Source of the DNA: a virus
DNA length: 64,000 bases
Reading direction: 5' to 3' (one strand)
Virus record (IMG/VR): IMGVR_UViG_3300028581_000011
Location: 1-64,000 of that record
Program-made: the position numbers and the translations under genes
The notes under the pieces: generated by a model
The model's database searches: none
What the model was told of the DNA's origin: nothing
Seen by the model: the letters and a program-made list of their open reading frames with translations, nothing else
Shown here: positions 53,657 to 59,663 of the stretch, piece by piece
How the letters are laid out: every line of letters starts with the position of its first letter
Numbering within the stretch: position 1 is the first letter of the stretch

Positions 53657-56600
53657 ATGAGTCTCGCACTAACTACTGACACCAACATCAAGCCGGCTGA
53701 TTTTGACATGTTGATGGATACGTGGAGCCGGCACATGGCCGGGCGTAATCTATACAACCTATCGCCGTTGCTGCCAATGATGTTGAATCTCAGCGGCGAA
53801 CCCTTGACCCTCCAAGATCACTATCCGTTTGAACCTCTCTTCGCTACGCATCTGCCCAAGAAGACCACCGTCATAGCCGGTCGTCAGGTGGGCAAGACAC
53901 AGTCGTTGTCCGCACAGGGTGTCGTGCAGACCTGTAGTCTTCCGTATTTCAAAACGTTGTTCATATCGCCGCTGTACGAACACATACGGCGATTCTCTTC
54001 CAACTACGTTCGTCCTCTGATCGACACGTCGCCGATCCGTCACATGTTTATTGACGCCAGGACAACGTCCAATGTTTTGCAGCGGTCGTTCCTTAATCAG
54101 TCGCTTATGTTCTTCTCGTATGCCTTCCTTTCTGTTGATCGTATACGTGGAATACCGGCCGATAAGAACACCTACGATGAATCGGCACGCGGCGATAATA
54201 CATATGTCAGTACACCGTCCGGCCAGGTACTCATTCGCGACGTAGCTGTAGGCACTCCGATAAAAGCTTTCTCGGAAGATGGTCATTTGATATGGACCCA
54301 TGTCATAAAGAAGTGGTATGCTGGTCGTCGTCGCTGCTACCGACTTCTACTGACAAATGGGAGATTCGTCGATGCCACAGCAGAAAGCTGGGTGGGCACA
54401 GCCACCGGATGTTTTAGAGTTTCCTCGATCATCAAAGCTGTCGCCGACTCAGGCAGCCAAACAAGCAAAAATTGTCAGGCAGGCTGTACAGCGGAATCAG
54501 CTGAGTCAACTACAATGGCAGACAGTGCTCGGAACACTGCTAGGGGACGGACACATAGCGCTGAGAGGAAGCTACCACGCAGTACACGGGCCCAGCCAAC
54601 AGGCATATCTCTGGCACAAGTACACAATATTGTCCGAGTTCGTTTACGGCGCACCTTCCAGATCGAAGAAGAGCAAACAAGGCTACTGGTCGGGAAGATT
54701 TTGGACTGCCGAGGTTCCGGTTTTCAAGTGCTTGCGGAGCCTCTGGTATCCAAACGGAATCAAGACAGTGACACCAAGAGCTCTGGAGATGATCGACAAG
54801 GTAGGCTTTTTGCCGACCATTGCTTGGTGGCTGGCAGACGATGGGAGCCGCTCAGGTCGAGCGGATTCACCGACGCTGATTTTTTGTACCAACGGGTTCC
54901 AACACGACGAGGTCAGTCTTTTGAGCGAATGGATGACGGATCATGGGTATCCATCGCATGTACTGACTCGGAACGTACCGGGTTACAGACAGTACCCGAT
55001 GCTGTATGTCGAGGCTTGGGCGGCTGTGAGACTCATGGAGGATCTACAGGCACTGACGCCGCCATGCATGCGATACAAGCTCCGCTGTACTGGGCGGAAC
55101 GACATGGCGACCTGTATGTTTTGCGGGAAACGGTTCCGGTTACGGATGTTGCGCCGTCGGAACGACTTACCATGGTTCCCGAACTGCCCGGACTGTGTCA
55201 TGGAAAAGAAACGATTCGAAAGGAAGCGTTTTGCTACAAGAAATCGAGAGAAAATACGGCAGCGTCGTCGCAGCTATTTCGAGCGAGTTCCGGAAGCTGC
55301 GGAACGCAATCGAATGTTGATTCGACAATGGATGAGGGCACATCCAGAGAAGCTAAGGCAATACAAAGAGACTTATCGAAAGAAGCAACGAACAATACAG
55401 ACTACTGTGATGCCGCCGTGCACGGTATGCGGTTGTCGGACGACAATACTCAGCAAACATGCGCGCGTCGATCGAGTGGTCTGTCCCGGCAAGTGCTGGC
55501 AGGAACATGCAAGACGGAAAGCAAAGAAGCGCTATTATATTCGCATGGCGCAGAAACGACCGGAGCTTCAATCAAAATATCTAACGTTGGCGCAGCGGAT
55601 AGACAGCTTGTACCTGTCGAACTGCTAGCAATTGTAGATGTAGGTCTACACGACGTATACGACGTCGAGACAACAACACCACACTCTGTGCTGTTAAATA
55701 GTTGTGCATGGGCAAACTGCCAGGACATTGATCCAGCCTTCATTCCGATTATTCGTGAGACCATCTCAGGCTCGAAGAAATATGGTCTTGAGCAATTTAG
55801 CGGAACGCCCAAAACGCTGGATGGGCCGCTAGAAAATCTGTGGATAGACGGCTCCATGGCGGAATGGTGCATCAAATGTCGCGAGTGCGGCAAATGGAAT
55901 ATTCCGTCACTGGACCACGACCTGGACAAGATGATAGGCCCGCGAATCATCGAACGAGAGATAAGCGAACGAGCCCCGGCTGTGGTGTGCGCTAAGTGCA
56001 GCAAGCCGATATACCCTCGAACTGGTCGATGGATACATCGTGTAGAAGAGAAGAGACTAGAGCACGCCAGCTACCACATGCCACAAATCATTTTTCCGCT
56101 TCACTTCGCTAAGCCAAAGAAGTGGAACGAACTGCTGATGAAGCGTGAAGGACTCGGCAATACACCTCCACACGTCTTCTACAACGAAGTATGCGGCACA
56201 AGCTATGACTACGGGGCCAAGCTTGTATCTGTAACTGATCTGAAGTCTGCCGCCACATTACACGCAAACACGATTGAAGAGGCTAAGCGTGTAATGAATC
56301 AATACACAGTGCGCATGCTGGCTATAGACTGGGGTGGCGGTGGTCAGGACCAGATCAGTTACACGGTGTTTGCCGTGCTAGGTATGCGCCCTGGTGGAAA
56401 GATCGACGTCATATACGGGCATCGTTCGCTGACGCCACATGCGCCATTCGTAGAAGCCGACATGGCGTTGAAGATAATGAGCGAGCTCAAGTGCTCATAT
56501 GCTTGCCACGATTACACCGGCGCTGGTGACATGCGCGAAGAGATCATGGTGAAGGCAGGTCTGCCTGTCGACCGCAGCTTCCCTATCGCCTACATCAGAG

Positions 56601-57025
56601 CCACTGCCGGCCCAATGATGCGGCACATACCGTTCAACGAAAGCACAGAACAACGAGATCACTACAGGCTGTGCAAAGCACGATCATTCGAGCTTACGTG
56701 CGCATTGATCAAGTTGTGCTACATAAGATTCTTCAAGTACGACTTCCTCAATCCGTCACAGACAGGGCTGCTGCACGACTTCCTGTCCTTGGTGGTGGAC
56801 GACGTGTCTAGCCGAACGGGTTCAGATATTCACACCATCATACGCAACGAGAAGGCCGGACCTGACGACTTTGCAAACGCCGTCAACATAGGCGTATGCT
56901 CGCTGTGCTATCGACGCAAGCAGTGGCCAAATGTTGCCGAGATGGCAAACATCAAGATCAGTGGCCACGCCCTGTCAGTCATGCATCCGACAAGCGTCAA
57001 TTGGGACGAGATGCCTCCGCTATGA
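53657..57025 (+). CDS. terL: Terminase large subunit (TerL) precursor containing an intein
   Basis: The start at 53657 (MSLALTTDTNIK) has AGGAGG upstream. The precursor is 1122 aa; removal of the 512-aa intein gives 610 aa. Walker A is VIAGRQVGKTQS near residue 75. The intein interrupts Walker B: NTYDE before it and CQDIDPAFIP after it, so the catalytic Glu is the last residue of the N-extein. The C-extein has zinc pairs (CIKCREC, CAKC) and an RNase-H-like nuclease with LAIDWGGGGQDQ, ACHDYTGAGD and DDFANAVNIG supplying the acidic residues. It packages DNA through the portal. Splicing should be essential. Confidence 0.9.
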   Translation: MSLALTTDTNIKPADFDMLMDTWSRHMAGRNLYNLSPLLPMMLNLSGEPLTLQDHYPFEPLFATHLPKKTTVIAGRQVGKTQSLSAQGVVQTCSLPYFKTLFISPLYEHIRRFSSNYVRPLIDTSPIRHMFIDARTTSNVLQRSFLNQSLMFFSYAFLSVDRIRGIPADKNTYDESARGDNTYVSTPSGQVLIRDVAVGTPIKAFSEDGHLIWTHVIKKWYAGRRRCYRLLLTNGRFVDATAESWVGTATGCFRVSSIIKAVADSGSQTSKNCQAGCTAESAESTTMADSARNTARGRTHSAERKLPRSTRAQPTGISLAQVHNIVRVRLRRTFQIEEEQTRLLVGKILDCRGSGFQVLAEPLVSKRNQDSDTKSSGDDRQGRLFADHCLVAGRRWEPLRSSGFTDADFLYQRVPTRRGQSFERMDDGSWVSIACTDSERTGLQTVPDAVCRGLGGCETHGGSTGTDAAMHAIQAPLYWAERHGDLYVLRETVPVTDVAPSERLTMVPELPGLCHGKETIRKEAFCYKKSRENTAASSQLFRASSGSCGTQSNVDSTMDEGTSREAKAIQRDLSKEATNNTDYCDAAVHGMRLSDDNTQQTCARRSSGLSRQVLAGTCKTESKEALLYSHGAETTGASIKISNVGAADRQLVPVELLAIVDVGLHDVYDVETTTPHSVLLNSCAWANCQDIDPAFIPIIRETISGSKKYGLEQFSGTPKTLDGPLENLWIDGSMAEWCIKCRECGKWNIPSLDHDLDKMIGPRIIEREISERAPAVVCAKCSKPIYPRTGRWIHRVEEKRLEHASYHMPQIIFPLHFAKPKKWNELLMKREGLGNTPPHVFYNEVCGTSYDYGAKLVSVTDLKSAATLHANTIEEAKRVMNQYTVRMLAIDWGGGGQDQISYTVFAVLGMRPGGKIDVIYGHRSLTPHAPFVEADMALKIMSELKCSYACHDYTGAGDMREEIMVKAGLPVDRSFPIAYIRATAGPMMRHIPFNESTEQRDHYRLCKARSFELTCALIKLCYIRFFKYDFLNPSQTGLLHDFLSLVVDDVSSRTGSDIHTIIRNEKAGPDDFANAVNIGVCSLCYRRKQWPNVAEMANIKISGHALSVMHPTSVNWDEMPPL
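54182..55717 (+). other. Intein coding segment in TerL (512 codons)
   Basis: The first residue is Ser of SARGDNTYVSTPSGQVLIRD (block A: GD-x-V-T-G). Block B is LLLTNGRFVDATAESWVGT; the usual TxxH His is Ser here. Blocks F and G are HDVYDVETTTPHSVLLN and SCAWAN, followed by Cys+1. The penultimate His is Ala. The block B His and the penultimate His are therefore both absent, yet the insertion is exactly in frame at the terminase active site. The ~390 residues between the splicing halves have no endonuclease signature in this frame. Confidence 0.85.
54372..55628 (+). CDS. LAGLIDADG homing endonuclease nested out of frame inside the intein, 418 aa
   Basis: It is in the +1 frame relative to TerL. 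GGGAG at 54359-54363 lies eight bases before the ATG at 54372; a TGA at 54351 closes the frame upstream. TVLGTLLGDGHIAL (residues 51-64) and PTIAWWLADDGS (148-159) are the two LAGLIDADG helices with their catalytic Asp. A basic C-terminal half holds CMFC/CPDC and CTVC/CPGKC zinc pairs. The stop at 55626-55628 falls where the C-terminal splicing domain begins. It would cut inteinless terL alleles. Confidence 0.85.
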   Translation: MPQQKAGWAQPPDVLEFPRSSKLSPTQAAKQAKIVRQAVQRNQLSQLQWQTVLGTLLGDGHIALRGSYHAVHGPSQQAYLWHKYTILSEFVYGAPSRSKKSKQGYWSGRFWTAEVPVFKCLRSLWYPNGIKTVTPRALEMIDKVGFLPTIAWWLADDGSRSGRADSPTLIFCTNGFQHDEVSLLSEWMTDHGYPSHVLTRNVPGYRQYPMLYVEAWAAVRLMEDLQALTPPCMRYKLRCTGRNDMATCMFCGKRFRLRMLRRRNDLPWFPNCPDCVMEKKRFERKRFATRNREKIRQRRRSYFERVPEAAERNRMLIRQWMRAHPEKLRQYKETYRKKQRTIQTTVMPPCTVCGCRTTILSKHARVDRVVCPGKCWQEHARRKAKKRYYIRMAQKRPELQSKYLTLAQRIDSLYLSNC

Positions 57026-59663
57026 GATTGCTCAGCCATCGTGAGCTGAAGCAGACATAGTTGTGACCTGCGTCGTGCAACCTACCCGCTCGGTCTAGCA
57101 TGGTCGGTATCTGGTCGAACATGCGTGGGTCGATTGGTTCCTTACCTATGCAACGATTCCACGCGGCACGGGTAAGCTTTATAGATGGTGGCTTGCCTAT
57201 TACGGCACCGGACGGCTGCTTCAACAATGCGAGTTTGCTTGAGCGACTATAGCCCTCGGTAATCAAAGGCAGTTGTTTGTTGATGACAGCCTGAGCCACA
57301 ATAGAGCCTATGACTGTTGCTTTGTCGGCAACAGACTCAGTGAGCACCCTATTCAAGCCTGCAGATAATGCAGTCGTATCCACGCCAGTGTTCACAAGGT
57401 AGCTGCGCAGGTCTTTAGCCAGCTCCTGATAACGACCAAGATAGCGGTCGTCCTCTCGTCTAAAGCTACGTCTGGCCAGATCTGCCAGGTAGTTCACCAA
57501 CAGCGCCCGTGCGGCAGCTATGGCCGAAGCAGGCAGATCTATGCTGTTGTATTCAGTTATGGCGATCCATCTGTCTGTGAAGACACTGGCCAGCGCAGTC
57601 AACGGCCTACCAATCGTAATGCAGTTGTTCACTGTCCGACCAGTGTTGTGAATGAGCTTGCGAAGAACTGACGTGTTGTCAGCACTGCGCAAGTCCCGTA
57701 TAGCCGGCCAGTTGTGAGGCCAGCTGGAAAGCTGCTTACCTGACACAGCCGGGCAGCCAAGCCCTGCTGCCAGCTCTATAGCTGCCCAGGATGATGGGCC
57801 GCATATACAGATGTTGCTTGGCGCATAGTTGTAGATCGGTGCCAGTATGTTGCGCAGCACGGCTAGCAACATTGCGTACACAAGCGGTCCACATGGCCGA
57901 GTCAAAGCATAAGCATCAGATGCTGTTAGTCCAGCAGGCTGACTAAAGTCCATACAGGGTGTGTTCTCATCGGGCAGGAAGTTTACAGCCTGTGTGGTGC
58001 CGGCCCTAGAGAGACAAAAAGTAGGGAACACAATGCCAGCCAGCTCGGAGTTCCAGCCGACTGTGTCATTGCCCCGCACGCAGACAGGATTACGAAGGCC
58101 AACAGCCATATGGAACAACTGATGGCTTAGTTGCGGGTGACATTGCGGTACACCCAGTCGCGCCTGAACAAGGCATTGTTGCATCCAGTCTAGTGTGTTG
58201 CCTGCGAGCAGTCTCTTGGGTGCGCAAAATGGTACTCGTTTTCCGTAATAGCCAATGTGTCCTGTGTAATACAGCTCCCCGGTGCTGGGCTTAGTTATCG
58301 CTTTGTCCAGCACCAGATCAGCATCGATCAACATCTCCTGAGCATGACCTGAGTGCAAACACCAGTAATCACCTGTTGCAGATATCAGCTGTCCTTTTCT
58401 GGTTCGGCCACTGCTGGTCACCCAGTAAGTTGTAGGTAGAGATCTAGCCGTACGTACAAGCCTGCTCTGAGCTATGACGATGTTCGGATCGACGCCAAAC
58501 TTTGGCAGGTCGACCAGTAGTTCCTCTTGTTCGTCCACACCGACCTCACGGCAGTAAGTAGCTACTGCTTGTGCCCACGGGACAGCATTTCTCCGGCACG
58601 ACAACAGAAAGTTATTGGGTTCCTGGTGTCGAAGAAACGTAGCCCTATCGTCAACCTGCTGGCTGATTATGATCTTCCCGTTACTCCTGGCAGCATGGGC
58701 TACGATGTCGGCTGTCAGCCTGTTGCACCAGAATATGAGTGTTCTATTTGTGAACATCTGCCAGCTGTAGATAGGGTGCACAGCATGACCGCGCTGAGTA
58801 TAGCCGGTGTCACATAGGATCAGTGGCAGTCCTCGCGCTGACTGCTCAAGCTGTCTGATGTGCAGAGGCATTCCGTCTACGATACTGTTGATAACGACAG
58901 CACTTTTGTCCCAGTCCAATGAGCTACGACGTATGTCGGGGCAGAAGTGCAGGCCTGACTCCGTAGATGACGCCACAGACGATAGCGTGCTATGCCACAC
59001 GTAATCCTTGCTGCTGGCGTCACGACCAATGAACAGAAATCGGCATATCCTGCCGGGCAAGTCGTACATAGGCAGAACAAGTACTGAGGACCAGTTGGTA
59101 CCGGGCAGTACGTTGCTTTGTCGTTTATTCGTGGCTGCGCCGTCGGATCTCTCCAGCATGTTGCGCAGGTAATCTGCGTCCACATGACCCACAAGCTGGC
59201 TCAAGCCCTGATCGGCCCATGACGCCGGCAGTTCACTGCGCCAGGACAGCTTATGTATCAAGTCAGAAAGGCCTGTGTTATGATGAATGAGGCCTAATTT
59301 GGCGTGCTGCCATAGCTCGGCAGTCATTGTCTGGTTGGCTACAACATGTTGCTTGTGCGCAGCTAGAAACGATCGATGTGTAGGCAGCGCATGGCCTTGT
59401 TCGTTCAAACGCGTGATAACAGACTCGACGTCAAGCTGCCAGGCCGCACTTGCCAGTTGCAACATATCGCCAGCAAATGCACAATGACGGCAATAAGCCC
59501 ACTGCCAATTGAATGGCCTGCTGTCAAAGATTTCCAGGCGACCTTGCCTACACACAGGACATTCTGCGGTAGTCGGAAGCGATGCTGCAGTGGGCCTAAC
59601 GCCCAGCCCAGCCAGTACCTTAACCCAGGACACCGCTTCTAAAAACGAGCGGAGGGATACCAT
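56997..59663 (-). CDS. Primase-like protein with CHC2-type zinc finger and degenerate P-loop region, 888 aa
   Basis: A finger with CPVC near residue 35 and CRHC near 58 followed by FAGDMLQLASAAW is typical of CHC2 primase fingers. SAVVINSIVDGMPLHIRQLE, then LPLILCDTGY may be a decayed Toprim. CICGPSSWAAIELAAGLG near 620 sits where a helicase P-loop would be but lacks GK[ST]. It may be a second, altered primase-helicase. The 3' end overlaps terL by 29 bases; the ATG shares CATG with the divergent gene. Confidence 0.6.
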   Translation of the reverse strand: MVSLRSFLEAVSWVKVLAGLGVRPTAASLPTTAECPVCRQGRLEIFDSRPFNWQWAYCRHCAFAGDMLQLASAAWQLDVESVITRLNEQGHALPTHRSFLAAHKQHVVANQTMTAELWQHAKLGLIHHNTGLSDLIHKLSWRSELPASWADQGLSQLVGHVDADYLRNMLERSDGAATNKRQSNVLPGTNWSSVLVLPMYDLPGRICRFLFIGRDASSKDYVWHSTLSSVASSTESGLHFCPDIRRSSLDWDKSAVVINSIVDGMPLHIRQLEQSARGLPLILCDTGYTQRGHAVHPIYSWQMFTNRTLIFWCNRLTADIVAHAARSNGKIIISQQVDDRATFLRHQEPNNFLLSCRRNAVPWAQAVATYCREVGVDEQEELLVDLPKFGVDPNIVIAQSRLVRTARSLPTTYWVTSSGRTRKGQLISATGDYWCLHSGHAQEMLIDADLVLDKAITKPSTGELYYTGHIGYYGKRVPFCAPKRLLAGNTLDWMQQCLVQARLGVPQCHPQLSHQLFHMAVGLRNPVCVRGNDTVGWNSELAGIVFPTFCLSRAGTTQAVNFLPDENTPCMDFSQPAGLTASDAYALTRPCGPLVYAMLLAVLRNILAPIYNYAPSNICICGPSSWAAIELAAGLGCPAVSGKQLSSWPHNWPAIRDLRSADNTSVLRKLIHNTGRTVNNCITIGRPLTALASVFTDRWIAITEYNSIDLPASAIAAARALLVNYLADLARRSFRREDDRYLGRYQELAKDLRSYLVNTGVDTTALSAGLNRVLTESVADKATVIGSIVAQAVINKQLPLITEGYSRSSKLALLKQPSGAVIGKPPSIKLTRAAWNRCIGKEPIDPRMFDQIPTMLDRAGRLHDAGHNYVCFSSRWLSNLIAEASRPN

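Follow-up and report, generated by a model that had tools for sequence, protein, structure and literature searches.

A probable mobile intein of a phage large terminase with its homing endonuclease encoded in an overlapping reading frame

Conventional homing inteins consist of two Hint lobes, with an endonuclease located in frame between splicing blocks B and F. In the fractured genes, split inteins are reportedly accompanied by a free-standing homing endonuclease, the host gene being divided between two ORFs whose products are joined by splicing in trans; gp41-1 is presumably one of these split inteins. The LAGLIDADG enzymes I-SceI and I-WcaI are encoded by introns. The closest precedent found is an out-of-frame HNH element without a splicing domain, described in a non-essential methylase gene of phage ShiLan, where it starts with GTG, has no Shine-Dalgarno (SD) sequence and is contained in an insert expected by the authors to remain in the methylase (PMC11855218); an out-of-frame HNH element was noted in phage Applejack too (PMC12613952). 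No publication describing an out-of-frame endonuclease nested in an intein was found; the 2025 preprint of the ShiLan group on non-canonical actinobacteriophage inteins (10.1101/2025.01.02.630785) may overlap with the present subject.

The locus considered here belongs to the window, a stretch of 64,000 nucleotides (positions 1 to 64,000 of the 185-kb IMG/VR virus record IMGVR_UViG_3300028581_000011), and very probably represents a mobile intein that interrupts a phage large terminase at its Walker B motif and whose homing endonuclease is an overlapping gene in another frame and not a fused domain. It shares with conventional homing inteins the Hint lobes and the location of an enzyme between blocks B and F, but this enzyme is encoded in the +1 frame with its own start and its own stop. 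As in the fractured genes, the endonuclease is separate from the intein polypeptide, whereas the terL frame is continuous. In the ShiLan insert, too, the host frame is free of stops and an endonuclease, with presumed homing, is encoded in another frame; however, this is an HNH element without Hint lobes, unlike the LAGLIDADG enzyme of the window, which is accompanied by Hint lobes and exact extein joints in terL. The window endonuclease has the LAGLIDADG_2 fold and both motifs of I-SceI and I-WcaI, but it is nested in an intein and carries a C-terminal CxxC motif and long helical extensions.

The terL frame is open over positions 53657-57025 without internal stops (TGA at 57023-57025). When the 512 codons for residues 176-687 are taken out of terL, ...ADKNTYDE is followed directly by CQDIDPAF, and the resulting 610-aa TerL aligns without gaps with uninterrupted TerLs around the Walker B motif (DEVQD/DEIQD), and the NTYDE/CQDID junction is unbroken in 101 related TerLs from IMG/VR. 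Since these relatives are continuous at Walker B and the joined TerL is gap-free, the insert can be placed at 54182-55717, which reproduces exactly the limits given in an earlier note made from the letters of this DNA. The parts of the locus are listed in Table 1. Downstream, an 888-aa ORF (56997-59663, minus strand) is convergent with terL and overlaps its 3' end by 29 nt; it contains an N-terminal CPVC...YCRHC motif and is primase-like in appearance.

Table 1. Positions of the parts of the interrupted terL locus in the window.
Feature	Position	Strand	Basis
TerL N-extein, 175 aa, ending in Walker B ...NTYDE	53657..54181	+	Alignment with uninterrupted TerLs; Pfam GpA_ATPase match
Intein N-lobe, host frame (S1; block A; block B T66-A-E-S69)	54182..54460	+	Lobe alignment/HMM from relatives; pLDDT 86-96 for residues 1-90
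SD-like GGGAG, 8 nt before ATG 54372	54360..54364	+	Sequence
LAGLIDADG_2 homing endonuclease ORF, +1 frame, 418 aa, TAG 55626-55628, alternative ATG 54357	54372..55628	+	ORF, Pfam, fold
terL-frame linker, intein residues 94-472, without stops, predicted disordered	54461..55597	+	Stop statistics; structure prediction
Intein C-lobe (block F VYDVETTTPHSVLLN, block G ...AWAN512)	55598..55717	+	Lobe alignment; structure prediction
TerL C-extein, beginning with C+1 QDID, stop included	55718..57025	+	Alignment; PHROG 675 terminase large subunit

The lobes of the window intein are weak by sequence alone, with no Pfam matches and an E-value of 0.012 for the joined lobes aligned end to end with the gp41-1 intein. 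AlphaFold2 modelling, which included 14 host-frame relatives, predicted intein residues 1-90 and 475-512 with a pLDDT of about 90, and a Foldseek search with the predicted structure found the gp41-1 and DnaB inteins as the best PDB matches (E ~5e-5); the model thus clearly indicates that both ends of the insert together adopt a Hint fold. Residues 94-472, the 379 that separate these ends, have a pLDDT below 50 and are predicted to be disordered.

The +1-frame ORF begins at codon 59 (54357-55628) or 64 of the intein, just ahead of block B, encodes 418-423 aa and stops 89 nt upstream of the intein end. Its assignment to the LAGLIDADG enzymes, already made in the earlier note together with its GGGAG and ATG, is borne out by a Pfam LAGLIDADG_2 match (E=2.6e-21), by sequence matches to I-WcaI (1.8e-6) and I-SceI (3.9e-5) and by a predicted fold (pLDDT 82) that resembles both enzymes (E 2e-10); the acidic residues are kept in both LAGLIDADG motifs (LLGDGH and LADDG).

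Scans with the window endonuclease or the TerL C-half alone and a megablast search in phages revealed no close relatives of the window, and scans of genome contigs revealed no relative. A TerL scan led to locus L036 (IMG/VR 3300022723_000184), in which an intein is inserted four residues upstream (N/CYDE), the terL frame is fully open and the endonuclease is in the +1 frame. The second LAGLIDADG motif of L036 is interrupted by a lone TAG (L036:5513-5515; IAY*LMDDG) where the terL frame is open, and a recent knock-out or amber readthrough is possible. A primase-like ORF (PHROG 510) is present in L036 where the window has its 888-aa ORF, and it is oriented likewise. The L036 endonuclease in turn led to the cultured Xanthomonas phage FoX3 (MT161383), with an intein in the helicase gp40 (Pfam Intein_splicing, 5e-11) and a +2-frame LAGLIDADG ORF; phage FoX2, with flanks 96-99% identical to those of FoX3, has the precise empty site WDE/CHHLGA. 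Two further scans yielded 121 endonuclease loci, including 18 rows in which a second frame is free of stops across the enzyme, or 17 once the IMG/VR copy of FoX3 was set aside. Classification with lobe profiles, covering this set and the earlier examples, gave 15 loci nested in the +1 frame, four nested in the +2 frame and 24 conventional in-frame ones; the remainder comprised seven loci in which the N-lobe alone was present, in frame, four split loci and 72 in which no lobes were detected. Enzymes of this family are encoded in frame in the KLEP7 RNA ligase and about 24 loci. LR745208 (L007) and LR756511 (L120) were matched as well, but are not nested.

An out-of-frame endonuclease within a continuous intein is a recurrent layout of phage inserts. 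With the window included and near-identical contigs counted once, about 16 distinct nested inteins are present in TerLs and DEAD/ResIII helicases, mostly at or beside the Walker B 'DE', and identical copies come from independent metagenomes (L125/L126 and L127/L128). The search among relatives for the same two-frame arrangement, proposed in the earlier note, has found it repeatedly, in terminases and helicases, in the +1 and +2 frames and also in a split version. In several distinct nested inteins (L178-L184, L129) the endonuclease stops are nearly co-located, about 50 nt ahead of the end of the intein. In the nested helicase intein L155 (4557-4946), the host frame departs early from the C-lobe motif (VYDISVGRTHWFI...), and a frameshift or decay is possible.

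The probability of a stop-free host frame was estimated with the endonuclease protein fixed and its synonymous codons resampled or permuted, each scheme comprising 20,000 replicates. In the window, the terL frame contains no stops against 15-22 expected (15 by permutation, 17 with terL codon usage), and zero was reached in 0/20,000 replicates of each scheme, in agreement with the earlier view that such openness is very unlikely by chance. The same test applied to the split helicase of Pectobacterium phage Ymer, in which openness of the frame is not required, gave 13 host-frame stops against 14 expected. In the 17 nested loci taken together, not one host-frame stop is present where 128 would be expected. 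Expectation is matched by the third frame, with 231 stops (224 expected), and by the two other frames of the 92 non-nested loci, with 1124 (1112 expected) and 1659 (1743 expected). The nested set was selected for zero host-frame stops; nevertheless, many of its AT-rich members expect 9-11 stops each and none of the 92 non-nested loci comes near zero, so the selection of the set cannot explain the absence of stops. Both the host and the endonuclease frames appear to be translated, one as the enzyme and the other as filler.

The window copy being isolated, frame-specific constraint was assessed with other members of the class. The endonucleases of homologous nested pairs are 54-70% identical, whereas the host-frame linkers share 31-37% of residues against 24-30% in the permutation null, a small excess that may reflect shared ancestry. 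The differences pile up at the third codon position of the endonuclease, and about half of the synonymous columns differ. With the endonuclease conserved and the linker near the null but stop-free, stops must have been excluded over considerable divergence while the linker residues drifted. When examined for selection on hydropathy, the linker gave a mean z of -1.7, a measure confounded by stop avoidance. For the class as a whole, the statistics show that selection on amino acids acts on the inter-lobe DNA in the endonuclease frame only, whereas in the terL frame this DNA is selected mainly for the lack of stops. Together with the poorly structured linker and the folded enzyme, these results support the earlier proposal of a dual-coding intein with a separately made endonuclease and an unstructured linker.

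As stop avoidance suggests, the terL frame would be translated through all 1122 codons, the two Hint lobes would meet around a long disordered loop, and the 512-aa insert would be spliced out to leave the 610-aa TerL. Internal entry into the same mRNA at 54372, behind GGGAG, or at 54357 would give a free I-SceI-like endonuclease, which could cut intein-less terL alleles and so bring about homing. Promoter and RNA-structure scans revealed no evident promoter-like site or RNA structure at the endonuclease start.

Programmed ribosomal frameshifting, by which the endonuclease would be fused to the N-extein and the intein N-lobe and not be initiated at its own start, is an unlikely alternative. The frames overlap extensively and several nested members lack a clear SD at the endonuclease start, as this mode of expression would allow; however, in-frame ATGs are found at the border, accompanied by SD-like sequence in the window, L130, L141, L178 and FoX3, and the +1 and +2 offsets would demand shifts in opposite directions.

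The splice residues bear on a second alternative, a dying element that no longer splices, with a leftover endonuclease and with TerL supplied otherwise or the phage defective. The nucleophile S1, the terminal N512 and C+1 are present in the window intein, but the block B histidine of the TxxH motif is replaced by serine and the penultimate histidine by A511; both histidines are common in inteins but were judged not to be universal, and hence were not taken as defining. A TerL intein at the same site (L128) starts with Ser, has TSDS as block B and keeps the His before the Asn; with serine also in the block B of L128, that of the window copy is not a private defect. The block B His is missing in L036 (Ser) and L126 (Glu) too. 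These TerL inteins, including the window copy with S69 (54386-54388), form a group without the block B histidine, in which a non-canonical splicing chemistry is possible. Judging from the lost histidines, splicing of the window copy may be slow, need compensation or fail. A dying element would account for these losses and for the nonsense codon of the L036 endonuclease, but it is quite improbable in view of the retained aspartates of both LAGLIDADG motifs, the retained first, last and +1 splice residues, the complete openness of both frames and the lack of a second TerL match in the 185-kb record.

Removal of the insert at the RNA level, by a group I-type or other intron, with the openness of the terL frame being incidental, is very improbable. 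Enzymes of the LAGLIDADG_2/I-SceI type are typical of group I introns; however, no group I or other intron RNA was matched in the insert in Rfam at E<=1, the Hint lobes are encoded in the terL frame, and incidental openness is rejected by the stop statistics. Two compensating sequencing or assembly indels in a normal intein with an in-frame endonuclease can practically be dismissed even though the window copy is known from one metagenomic record, as such an artefact would leave about 15 terL-frame stops between the indels where none is present, the endonuclease has its own stop ahead of the C-lobe, and the same layout recurs in the isolate genome of FoX3 and in pairs of independent contigs.

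The reading of the locus as an intein with an overlapping endonuclease gene also bears on split inteins. In the Pectobacterium phages Ymer (L118), Amona (L122) and Sabo (L123), the halves of a helicase intein are located in two ORFs, both overlapped by a LAGLIDADG ORF in the +2 frame. The endonuclease is annotated in these cultured phages, and the natural split intein is not annotated as such in their records. In L131, L142 and L199 the N- and C-lobes lie in separate ORFs around the endonuclease, and these are likely fractured genes. If a nested intein lost the no-stop constraint, it would become split, with the break spanned by the endonuclease gene, as in the Pectobacterium phages; the transition between the two states could have gone either way. 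On the endonuclease tree, the window groups with L130, a TerL intein nested in the +1 frame at the same site, and the nested +2 members group with split ones. The nested +1 state needs at least four changes and the +2 state two, of which strongly supported branches force at least two and one, respectively; several origins of nesting are likely but not proven, because the deep part of the tree is weakly supported. On balance, the observations lean slightly towards a broader view: nested out-of-frame endonucleases in stop-free inteins would be widespread and repeatedly evolved in phage terminases and helicases, with the host frame serving only as a stop-free disordered loop, and would provide a route to split inteins with free-standing endonucleases.

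Even a continuous intein can thus do without an endonuclease in its own polypeptide: with the enzyme overprinted on the loop, no fused enzyme has to fold within the intein. The result is a long same-strand overlap of coding regions (about 420 codons here), with the second frame constrained mainly to lack stops. Annotation pipelines are likely to miss such enzymes or to mislabel the host gene. FoX3 and FoX2 constitute a cultured intein-plus/intein-minus pair that makes the layout testable, and the layout itself provides a concrete stage halfway between one-piece inteins and split ones.
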